The position numbers were made by a program, and so were the translations under genes. Source: Nannochloropsis salina CCMP1776 (lineage: Eukaryota; Sar; Eustigmatophyceae; Eustigmatales; Monodopsidaceae). From it: a DNA stretch of 26,767 bases. The first letter of the stretch is position 1, and every line of letters starts with the position of its first letter. Below are positions 22,401 through 26,012 of this stretch, in pieces. Location: NCBI GenBank assembly GCA_004565275.1, contig SDOX01000184.1:88853-115619 (forward strand). Direction: 5' to 3'. The notes beneath the pieces were generated by a model. It ran no database searches. It saw only the letters and a program-made list of their open reading frames with translations, and was not told the origin of the DNA.

Positions 22401-25400
22401 GTGCGACGGGCGCTACCGGTGCGACGGGCGCTACGGGTGCAACGGGTGCTACAGGCGCCACGGGCGCTACGGGTGCGACGGGTGCGACGGGTACTACGGG
22501 CGCTACCGGTGCGACGGGTGCGACGGGTGCCACGGGTGCTACGGGCGCAAAGGGCGCTACGGGTGCGACCGGTGCAACTGGTGGTACGGGTGCGACGGGC
22601 GCAACCGGCGCCACGGGTGCCGCGGGAGCTCGAGGGATGACGGGTCCTGCGGGGCCTGGCGACCTCCTACTCTGTTCCGAGGCTTGTGATGCTGAATTGG
22701 CAGAAGCCTATAGATTCTGTGAGGTACGTGCATCTAGAAGTATTTTAAGGTAAAGAGAAAACGTTATGTATAATTTCGATCCTCAAACATTCATGTAACA
22801 CCGCATCTGCAGGCTATTTATGAAGTCGAGTCAAGTCGCATCGAGTGTCAGGTCTACGTATATGGGGTTTATACTAAATGCTTTGATTTCTGCCAGAGTA
22901 CTGGCGGCGAGCAAATCACGATGCAGCCACGTCCTTTCAGCAGAATTTCCAAAGTAGATATGAATCTAGGTGAAGAAAAACTGTCCACTTCGGTTGTGAG
23001 CGGGGACTATGCGTATTTCGGGTGAGGAGAAAATCAGAAGGGACACGCATCATCATAGGATTTGATGCGATCTGAGTTGCTGAAACGCCTCGCACTACTT
23101 TCTATGCAGGACTGACACATCTCCTGGGATGGTGGTGAAGGTGAGTCTGACCGACTTCAGTCGTGTGGATAGCCTTGTACTTGAGGATGGTGAGCGACGC
23201 CTATCCACTTCGGTTGTGAGCGGGGAGTATGCGTATTTCGGGTGAGGAGAAAATCAGAAGGAACACGCATCATTGGCGGATTCGATGCGATCTGAGTTGC
23301 TGAAAAGCTTCGCACTACTTTCTATGTAGGACTGCCACATTCCCTGGCATAGTGGTGAAGGTGAGGCTGACCGACTTCAGTCGTGTGAGCAGCCTTGTAC
23401 TGGAGGATGGTGAAGACTCCCTATCCACTTCGGTTGTGAGCGGGGACTATGCGTATTTCGGGTGAGGAGAAAATCAGAAGGAACACGCAGCATCATAGGA
23501 TTCGATGCGATCTGAGTTGCTGAAACGCTTCGCACTACTTTCTATGCAGGACTAACACATCTCCTGGCATAGTGGTGAGGGTGAGTCTGACCAATTTCAC
23601 TCGCGTGGACAGCCTTGTACTTGAGGATGGTGAGCGACGCCTATCCACTTCGGTTGTAAGCGGGGAGTATGCGTATTTCGGGTGAGGAGAAAATCAGCAG
23701 GGACACGCATCATTGGCGGATTCGATGCAATCTGAGTTGCTGAAACGCTTCTTAATACCTTCTATGCAGGACTAACACATCTCCAGGCATAGTGGTGAGG
23801 GTGAGCCTGACCAATTTCAATCGTGTGAGCAGCCTTGCACTTGAGGATGGTGAAGATTTCCTATCCACTTCGGTTGTGAGCGAGGGGTATGCGTATTTCG
23901 GGTGAGGAAAAAATCAGAAGGGACACGCATCATTGTAGGATTCGATGCGATCTGGGTTGCTGAAACGCTTCGCACTACTTTCTATGCAGGACTACCACAT
24001 TCCCTTCCACAGTGGTGAAGGTGAGGCTGACCGACTTCAGTCGTGTAAGCAGCCTTGTACTTAAGGATGGTGACGATTTCCTATCCACTTCGGTTGTGAG
24101 CGAGGGGTATGCGTATTTCGGGTGAGGAGAAAATCAGAAGGGACACGCATCATTGTAGGATTCGATGCGATCTGAGTTGCTGAAACGCCTCGCACTACTT
24201 TCTATGCAGGACTACCACATTCCCTTCCACAGTGGTGAAGGTGAGCCTGACCGACTTCAGTCGTGTGAGCAGCCTTGTACTTGAGGATGGTGACGATTTC
24301 CTATCCACTTCGGTTGTGAGCGGGGAGTATGCGTATTTCGGGTGAGGAGAAAATCAGAACGAACACGCAGCATCATAGGATTTGATGCGATCTGAGTTGC
24401 TGAAACGCTTCGCACTACTTTCTATGCAGGACTGAAACATCTCCTGGGATGGTGGTGAAGGTGAGTCTGACCGACTTCAGTCGTGTGGATAGCCTTTCAC
24501 TCAAGGATCCTCAAGACTCCCTATCCACTTCGGTTGTGAGCGGGGACTATGCGTATTTCGGGTGAGGAGAAAATCAGAAGGGACACGCATCATCATAGGA
24601 TTTGATGCGATCTGAGTTGCTAAAATGCTTTGCACTACTTTCTATGCAGGACTGACACATCTCCTGGGATAGTGGTGAAGGTGAGTTTGACCGACTTCAG
24701 TCGTGTGGACAGCCTTGCACTTGAGGATGGTGAGCGACGCCTATCCACTTCGATTGTGAGCGGGGACTATGCGTATTTCGGGTGAGGAGAAAATCAGAAC
24801 GAACACGCAGCATCATAGGATTTGATGCGATCTGAGTTGCTGAAACGCTTTGCACTACTTTCTATGCAGGACTAACACATCCCCTGGTATAGTGGTGAGG
24901 ATTAGCCTGACCGACTTCAATCGTGTGAGTAGCCTTGTACTTGAGGATGGTGAGCGACGCCTATCCACTTCGGTTGTGAGCGGGGACTATGCGTATTTCG
25001 GGTGAGGAGAAAATCAGAAGGAACACGCATCATTGGCGGATTCGATGCGATCTGAGTTGCTGAAACGCTTCGCACTACTTTCTATGCAGGACTAACACAT
25101 CTCCTGGCATAGTGGTGAGGATGAGCCTGACCAATTTCACTCGCGTCGACAGCCTTGCACTTGAGGATGGTGAAGACTCCCTATCCACTTCGGTTGTGAG
25201 CGGGGAGTATGCGTATTTCGGGTGAGGAGAAAATCAGAAGGAACACGCAGCATCATAGAATTTGATGCGATCTGAGTTGCTGATACGCTTTGCACTACTT
25301 TCTATGCAGGACTGCCACATCTCCTGGCATAGTGGTGAGGGTAAGCCTGACCGACTTCAATCGTGTGGAAAGCCTTGTACTTGAGGATGGCGAGCGACGC

Positions 25401-26012
25401 CTATCCACTTCGGTTCTGAGCGGGGAGTATGCGTATTTCGGGTGAGGAGAAAATCAGAAGGGACACGCATCATTGGCGGATTCGATGCAATCTGAGTTGC
25501 TGAAACGCCTCGCACTACTTTCTATGCAGGACTAGCACATTGCCTGGCATAGTGGTGAGGGTGAGTCTGACCGACTTCAGTCGTGTGAGCAGCCTTGAAC
25601 TTGAGGATGATGAAAATCTCCTATCCACTTCAGTTGTGAGCGGGGACTATGCGTATTTCGGGTGAGGAGAAAATCAGAAGGGACACGCAGCATTGTAGCA
25701 TTTGATGCGATCTGAGTTGCTGAAACGCTTCGCACTACTTTCTATGCAGGACTGGCGAGTCCCCTGGCATGGTGGTGAAGGTGAGGCTGACCGACTTCAG
25801 TCGTGTGAGCAGCCTTGTACTGGAGGATGGTGAAGACGAGCTATCCACTTCGGTTGTGAGCGGGGAGTATGCGTATTTCGGGTGAGGAGAAAATCAGAAC
25901 GAACACGCAGCATCATAGGATTTGATGCGATCTGAGTTGCTGACACGCTTTGCACTACTTTCTATGCAGGACTGAAACATCTCCTGGCATACTGGTGAAG
26001 GTTGCTCTCTAG
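19417..26012 (+). CDS. Secreted collagen-stalk / tandem-exon beta-propeller protein (putative surface adhesin)
   Basis: Seventeen exons: 19417-20463, 20626-22723, 22813-23021, then thirteen 132-bp exons starting at 23110 and every 220 bp to 25750, and the last at 25970-26012 (TAG). Every intron is GT-AG; total about 1,700 aa. Domains: signal peptide (about 1-25, ends LAAPQA); Ig/DUF11-like domain (26-170; [26 protein letters not shown]); PAN/apple-like Cys module (C241, C245, C266, C268, C269, C273); beta-sandwich module (about 320-450; [36 protein letters not shown]); PT-rich hinge; about 184 Gly-X-Y triplets; Cys-rich neck ([16 protein letters not shown] ... CFDFC); then 14 blade repeats. 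There is no membrane segment, so it is secreted, probably to the wall or matrix. The collagen frame shifts by one base near 21640 (see findings), so as sequenced the protein is interrupted unless that base is an error. Function as an adhesin or lectin is inferred from architecture only. Confidence 0.85.
20464..20625 (+). other. Intron 1 of the adhesin gene
   Basis: ACG|GTAAGC to TGTGTAG|ACC, phase 0, 162 bp. Splicing joins two halves of one beta-sandwich module (SPGIT to [11 protein letters not shown]), which neither exon alone completes. Confidence 0.85.
20995..22657 (+). repeat. Collagen-like (Gly-X-Y)n coding repeat
   Basis: About 184 Gly-X-Y triplets, overwhelmingly Gly-Ala-Thr with occasional [18 protein letters not shown] and GAM. 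Pro is almost absent and Thr fills most Y positions. The 9-bp DNA unit leaves all frames on both strands nearly stop-free. A block of about 107 bp with the rarer triplets ([15 protein letters not shown]) occurs twice, at 21103-21209 and 21545-21651. Confidence 0.92.
22724..22812 (+). other. Intron 2 of the adhesin gene
   Basis: GAG|GTACGT to CATCTGCAG|GCT, phase 0, 89 bp. It joins the Cys-rich neck YRFCE to AIYEVESS. Its sequence is unlike the 88-bp array introns. Confidence 0.85.
22981..26003 (+). repeat. 220-bp exon-intron tandem array, about 13.7 units
   Basis: Each unit holds the end of one blade exon (CTATCCACTTCGGTTGTG ... TATTTCGG), an 88-bp intron (GTGAGGAGAAAATCAG ... TTTCTATGCAG) and the start of the next exon. 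The period is exactly 220 bp with no insertion or deletion across all units. Every exon is 132 bp and opens after one base of a codon, so all are phase-symmetric. Each encodes 44 residues of the pattern [11 protein letters not shown], [16 protein letters not shown], [16 protein letters not shown]. One acceptor reads TATGTAG in place of TATGCAG (23329); all others are TATGCAG. Confidence 0.95.

Follow-up and report, generated by a model that had tools for sequence, protein, structure and literature searches.

The window analysed here is a stretch of 26,767 nucleotides from Nannochloropsis salina CCMP1776 (assembly GCA_004565275.1, contig SDOX01000184.1, positions 88,853-115,619 of the forward strand), and the coordinates given below are those of the window. 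At its telomeric side lies a gene that would be the last before the telomere and would encode a secreted, stalked surface protein, with a head derived from a tandem array of alternating introns and exons (Table 1). The introns of this array start at 23022 + 220k, with k from 0 to 13, the first being 23022-23109 and the last 25882-25969. The exons lie at 23110-23241 and then every 220 bp up to 25750-25881, each having 44 codons, the equivalent of one blade of the propeller proposed below. All 13 exons are open in one frame, with phase 2 and a split Gly codon at both ends. Every one of the 14 introns is 88 bp long and starts with GTGAGG, while the end is GCAG in 13 and GTAG in one. In addition, Tandem Repeats Finder (TRF) independently gave a period of 220, 13.7 copies and 0% indels. 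A sequence-only reading of this DNA had described 13 consecutive units of the same size (132-bp exon, 88-bp intron), all open and all with GT-AG sites. This is borne out in the window array, which in fact consists of 14 introns, 13 exons and a short terminal exon. If an intron were read through, a TGA would be met immediately, and the 88-bp length is not divisible by 3.

The same reading proposed that the cassette be sought at other chromosome ends, and a family was found there. The genome was searched with DNA and protein queries, and the numbers of places are lower bounds. Blades, as arrays or fragments, are present at at least 17 other places (designated by C numbers), all 17 lying 0-11.6 kb from the end of a contig. 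Sixteen of them are oriented towards that end; the exception is C70, a single-blade fragment that points away. Of the fetched loci, 13 extend to the end of their contig; telomere repeats are numerous in 12 of these, and C7 has none. Sixteen loci, including the window, have at least one blade intron, and 12 of these are complete: ten with 7 introns (C1, C17, C33, C37, C41, C44, C64, C69, C75 and C78R) and two with 14 (the window and C31). C69 contains one irregular unit, and its count is seven under either of two possible acceptors. All 12 complete arrays begin with a half-blade exon and finish with a complementary, homologous short exon and a stop codon; at the sequence level the two exons together make up a single blade from its N- and C-terminal portions, the pattern of a closing ring. 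The incomplete arrays are C46 (4 introns, with a frameshift within a blade), C7 (contig end inside the array), C62 (telomere just after the first full blade) and C78L (broken). Codon 27 is a proline solely in exon 7 (24430-24561 in the window) of both 14-blade arrays. This is exactly where ring 1 would pass into ring 2, and the proline may be a marker of the ring boundary or a chance occurrence.

The blade intron occupies the same phase-2 position in each blade across the family. The exact size claimed earlier holds for the window copy but not family-wide: among the nine arrays similar in type to that of the window, which is included, 60 of the 65 counted introns are 88 bp long and the others 87, 89 or 90 bp. 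In the seven more diverged loci (C37, C41, C44, C69, C75 and both ends of C78) the 43 counted introns range from 69 to 92 bp, at the same place and in the same phase. Not counted were two entries located past the end of their array (the eighth of C17 and the second of C62), the fragments C70 and C79 with a single blade each, and entries lacking a site pair. Diverged members, with approximately 37-71% identity to the search query, retain the exon frame and the intron position. One intron per blade is apparently an old trait of the family. Furthermore, the GT-AG borders, the breaking of the frame and the position conserved in paralogs indicate that the 88-bp segments are probably spliceosomal introns.

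Exon and intron had been described as alike in low divergence, which the measured differences contradict. The mean pairwise difference in the window is 0.091 in the intron interior, 0.075 at positions 1 and 2 of most exon codons and 0.434 at six codons, and equal divergence was rejected on these grounds. Variation was studied in seven arrays with 49 full units of 88 + 132 bp; four units with 87- or 89-bp introns were dropped, and C7 contributed three units. For each of the seven arrays, hypervariable ("hot") codons were picked on the other six and tested on the seventh. The hot codons of a blade are 2, 4, 20 or 23, 29, 30 and 32, largely the same in every array, and these six or seven codons are approximately five times as variable as the introns. 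The difference at their positions 1 and 2 is 0.35-0.56, against 0.06-0.10 in the intron interior, and when 20,000 sets of intron sites were drawn at random, none came up to the hot-codon value in any array. The pooled ratio of nonsynonymous to synonymous differences (pN/pS) amounts to 1.36 for seven hot codons, compared with 0.61 for the remaining codons. In pairs of blades with the same residue, pooled synonymous codon differences are 0.184 at the hot codons, 0.115 at their neighbours and 0.057 in the rest. This gradient fits a model in which selection preserves the diversity of the hot codons and the remainder is homogenised by conversion. By analogy with YVTN propellers, codons 2 and 4 would lie in the presumed b-c loop and codons 29-32 in the presumed d-a loop. 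The earlier proposal that the repeat unit is a splice cassette, with exon and intron amplified and homogenised together, stands but is incomplete, as the exon would be a blade of a sevenfold domain, the intron layout is family-wide and specific codons are kept different.

The blades of the window and C31 show no register, with an identity of 0.863 for the same index and 0.8625 for other indices (P = 0.36). Linkage within a unit is 0.28-0.48 below 3 bp and approximately 0.1 beyond 10-20 bp, a value that we estimate to be near the chance level for so few units. With no register and a fast decay of linkage, exchange therefore looks frequent and short. Larger exchanges are also apparent, as the genes are mosaics. 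Compared with C1, identity of the window gene is 0.98 in the N-terminal domain (N-domain), 0.74 in the blades and 0.47 in the 3' flank, while compared with C64 and C17 it is 0.60-0.61, 0.84-0.85 and 0.87-0.88, respectively. Hence the 5' and 3' halves of the gene appear to reassort between chromosome ends. Regarding the introns, they differ from those of C1 by 0.18-0.23 and fourfold sites by 0.33-0.39, and the intron sequence may therefore be constrained. An intron core (CACGCAGCATC...GATGCGATCTGA, e.g. in 23022-23109) is conserved even in C1. An intronic small RNA was considered and rejected, since Rfam gave no match in the array or the window. A conserved RNA structure is not claimed either, because the predicted hairpin shows 0 compensatory changes in its 15 pairs among 27 introns.

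Blades of YVTN and WD40 propellers have the strand topology c-d-a-b. Each array exon may correspond to one blade of a seven-bladed beta-propeller, a fold suggested by analogy. The number of blades is 7 or 14 in all 12 complete arrays, and with one blade per exon and counts in sevens the 14 blades of the window would therefore form two rings. Relatives without introns were also found. A protein of a Peribacteraceae metagenome-assembled genome (L059), with 42% identity, lacks introns. It contains seven repeats as judged by eye, and these begin and end with the same partial units. It was the one relative among 66 stretches in a second bacterial search; a first search, with the full alignment, gave no relative among 91 stretches. 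In contigs of a viral collection, tandem relatives without introns were present in the two that were read out of three. These relatives support a sevenfold closed unit that would be older than the introns.

The N-domain of the window gene has 58 matches in the genome, at approximately 50 places as grouped by eye, and some of them carry other heads. The head of C57 (L063) has 6.9 copies of a 183-bp repeat that matches the Pfam beta-propeller repeat SBBP (PF06739, E = 5.1e-16) and is open over approximately four copies without an intron. The head of C70 (L019) has seven BNR/Asp-box-like blades, with a BNR match below the cut-off (E ~0.1), and includes six phase-0 exons, each 120-126 bp long and preceded by an intron of 148-152 bp. 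An exon-intron blade cassette is therefore present in two head types that differ in phase and intron length. C57 and C70 share the N-domain and a Pro/Thr stalk, and their sevenfold heads are unrelated. Together with the window head, at least three sequence types of sevenfold head are thus found on one N-domain.

We consider that the array most probably encodes the C-terminal propeller binding head of a secreted, stalked surface protein, diversified by exchange and selection, and give this explanation as a whole a probability of roughly 0.7. The N-terminal half-exon would supply strands d-a-b and the terminal exon strand c, closing the chain. Short, frequent exchanges among blades, arrays and chromosome ends would keep the introns and most of the exon sequence alike, while larger ones would place a given head on different 5' halves. 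Under selection, the arrays would stay at 7 or 14 blades and a few codons per blade would remain diverse, mainly in the would-be d-a and b-c loops, which would form the binding face. A diversifying head for recognition or adhesion is our best guess of its function.

Several observations weigh against this explanation. The blade profile had no match among solved structures, the Pfam matches of the window blade were all below the cut-off (e.g. LVIVD, E = 0.0027, and DUF4369, E = 3.4e-5), neither C75 nor L059 matched a propeller family, and the best solved-structure match of L059 was weak (the WD40 protein FAP52, E = 0.012); the proposed fold therefore rests on the sevenfold count, the closure pattern and the context. 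All 108 counted blade introns have GT-AG borders, but this is partly built in, because the mapping sought GT and AG near the expected places. Regarding the hot codons, some do not vary in one particular array (codon 32 in the window, codon 20 in C7 and codon 23 in C1), the pooled pN/pS is modest and in one of the seven arrays the ratio is below 1 (C33, 0.435/0.564). In addition, pS is also higher at hot codons (0.325 versus 0.112), and the synonymous gradient is orderly in three arrays (the window, C31 and C17) but not in the other four, with 0/34 at the hot codons of C1. The trace of a seven-unit copy is weak in the 14-blade arrays (lag-7 P = 0.11 in the window and 0.025 in C31), and whole-ring duplication as the source of the 14 blades was rejected, since this signal is not clear. 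The C57 head changes frame outside its open part, and units 3 and 5 of C70 have alternative acceptors. Finally, the stalk of the window gene has a one-base frameshift near 21640, where the Gly-Ala-Thr frame shifts from the open reading frame (ORF) 20626-22689 to ORF 21569-22753. The window copy is therefore either mis-assembled there or recently broken, that is, a recent pseudogene.

Other explanations were weighed against the same evidence. A structural protein of cell wall or adhesive type, with silk-like repeats homogenised under selection for mechanical uniformity and no role in recognition, would suit the collagen-like or Pro/Thr-rich stalks, the secreted type and the exon-intron homogenisation shared with silk genes. 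We regard it as unlikely, since specific codons are kept different, which is the opposite of uniformity, the number is fixed at 7 or 14 and unrelated seven-repeat heads occur on the same N-domain. The hot codons could instead be mutation hotspots, produced by targeted codon mutagenesis and not by selection. Synonymous differences are indeed raised at hot codons, and same-residue pairs differ in codon at codons 4, 20 and 29 (0.35, 0.19 and 0.42). However, such pairs seldom differ in codon at 2, 23, 30 and 32 (0.03-0.12), and the variation there is therefore nearly all amino-acid changing; moreover, the pooled synonymous excess falls with distance from the hot codons, as selection against homogenisation predicts, the fall being orderly in 3 of 7 arrays. 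Hotspots are thus quite improbable as the cause.

It is very improbable that the array is a neutral, recent expansion of a telomere-side minisatellite that chances to hold an exon and an intron, its uniformity reflecting youth with no function kept. All 13 exons are open, the 12 complete arrays have 7 or 14 blades, pN/pS is 0.61 outside the hot set, and the diverged members hold the exon frame and the intron position though their introns drift. The position beside the telomere and the concerted evolution agree with such an expansion, as do the window frameshift upstream of the array and the broken array in C46. That the 88-bp segments are a non-coding satellite or retained segments is hardly credible. 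Their sequence is well conserved relative to fourfold sites in the comparison with C1, as this would have it, but they contain an in-frame TGA at once, their length is not a multiple of 3 and they separate open blade exons, their splice sites are kept in diverged members with other intron lengths, and no Rfam match was found in the array.

If the array does encode a diversifying binding head, it would represent a natural case in which exon borders, protein repeat and recombination unit coincide, and in which ring closure sets the repeat number at 7 or 14. The long-standing idea that introns aid the recombination of modular proteins could then be tested within a single family of genes, where an SBBP head that seems to lack introns, two types of head with introns, and arrays of both old and young age would serve as internal controls. 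More tentatively, this unicellular alga could possess a chromosome-end system of diversifying recognition, with approximately 50 copies or fragments of the N-domain and interchangeable seven-bladed heads of several unrelated types, some in one-blade exon-intron cassettes. The introns would serve as recombination spacers that preserve the frame when blades are swapped or converted, while selection fixes seven and diversifies the binding face; we see this as possible but doubtful. Should partners, viruses or surfaces be recognised by these heads, the alga would offer a counterpart to the repertoire receptors of fungi and animals.

Table 1. Parts of the telomere-side gene and its flank in the window
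Feature	Positions	Strand	Remarks
Exon 1	19417..20463	+	Start Met, signal-peptide-like stretch (by eye), N-domain (CPRL..., from 19492) and Cys-rich segment; within ORF 19408-20505
Intron 1	20464..20625	+	GTAAGC...GTAG; predicted from sequence; connects ORF 19408-20505 to ORF 20626-22689
Exon 2	20626..22723	+	Thr/Ser/Pro linker, then collagen-like Gly-Ala-Thr stalk
Intron 2	22724..22812	+	89 bp, GTACGT...GCAG; aligned with C1, C46, C31 and C37
Exon 3	22813..23021	+	Cys-containing linker and N-terminal part (half) of the first putative blade
Array	23022..25969	+	14 introns of 88 bp alternating with 13 exons of 132 bp
Terminal exon	25970..26012	+	Putative ring-closing segment, stop at 26012; homologous ending and stop in all 12 complete arrays and C46
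3' flank	26013..26571	+	Common to other chromosome ends
Telomere repeat (TTAGGG)n	26572..26767	+	TRF, 32.8 copies

All parts of the gene upstream of the array run in its direction. The first 480 nt of the N-domain are 98-99% identical to those of C1 and C46, and the Cys-rich segment of exon 1 reads CYEYCSL...FFFNW...CFCC...C.PFIFDP. In exon 2, Pfam Collagen matches 20626-21640 (E = 2.2e-29). The stalks of C17, C46 and C62 change frame (by eye), like that of the window gene, and low-complexity stalks may therefore be unstable or mis-assembled. Downstream, 26010-26309 has 87-91% identity to C31, C33, C64, C17 and C46, and 47% to C1. The telomere begins 559 bp past the stop codon. Elsewhere in the window, a Copia-type long terminal repeat (LTR) retroelement is found at 13029-16514 and 8283-9266, with gag, integrase and reverse-transcriptase frames (PF14223, PF00665 and PF07727) and a second, partial reverse-transcriptase copy. 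The first part (1-6000) is GC-rich (52-65%), and towards the telomere the GC content is approximately 39-49%, as far as the GC-rich collagen stalk.

No algal gene of this form had been known to the sequence-only reading, and none was found in the limited set of open-access literature that we searched, nor was the combination of sevenfold exon-intron cassettes with interchangeable heads. The passages on chromosome ends in a eustigmatophyte genome paper contain nothing similar (PMC8570151). Taken generally the claim was too strong, as homogenised repeat introns are described in spider silk. The repeat exons of the flagelliform and Argiope MaSp2 silk genes are bounded by introns, and within a gene both have been homogenised, which has been proposed to aid unequal exchange (PMC9779670). 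The window array shares this feature, its repeat unit being an exon plus an intron that are both homogenised. Silk differs in being a structural protein of few amino acids, and counts in sevens, hot codons and a telomeric position are not mentioned in the available parts of that paper.

A parallel in the blades may be the HNWD genes of Podospora anserina (HET-E, HET-D and HET-R), NOD-like receptors (NLRs) whose WD40 propellers have high internal conservation, their near-identical repeats evolving in concert both inside a gene and from gene to gene (PMC1805685, PMC2873952). As far as the available parts of these papers describe, four codons per repeat (7, 9 and 25, 27) are under diversifying selection on the top face, in the d-a loop and b-c turn, and reshuffling yields new heads. 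The window family likewise has near-identical blades under concerted evolution and a few hypervariable codons with raised replacement (pooled pN/pS; below 1 in C33). If the presumed loop assignment holds, codons 2, 4 and 29-32 would fall in the loops of the top face that vary in HNWD. In contrast, the HNWD proteins are intracellular NLRs with WD40 repeats in variable number, and the word "intron" has 0 occurrences in the available text of PMC2873952, whereas the window family is of secreted type, belongs to another repeat family and has one intron per blade, 7 or 14 blades and a telomere-side position. Neither WD40 nor NACHT was matched when exon 1, seven of the array exons and the beginning of exon 2 were scanned with Pfam. 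SBBP (PF06739), BNR/Asp-box and YVTN/LVIVD are the same sort of sevenfold repeat head, and SBBP and BNR-like heads (BNR below the cut-off) occur here on the same N-domain, but the window blade matched none of them above the cut-off.

The family also resembles subtelomeric mosaic families of surface proteins, such as those of Pneumocystis jirovecii, which, in the passages available, share a terminal position, many copies and reassortment between chromosome ends (PMC10622565). Near-end position, telomere repeats and mosaic genes were all found here. The window family differs in its modular, putative propeller heads and in its photosynthetic host. The light-harvesting family PF00504 gave 34 matches in the genome (each exon counted separately), and the organism is therefore photosynthetic. 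Among solved structures, one of these best matches fucoxanthin-chlorophyll proteins (FCP-D), and together the matches suggest an alga of the red lineage. Homogenised repeat introns are known from silk, homogenised and diversifying propellers from HNWD, and mosaic gene families from subtelomeres; each is known separately, and what is new here is their combination.

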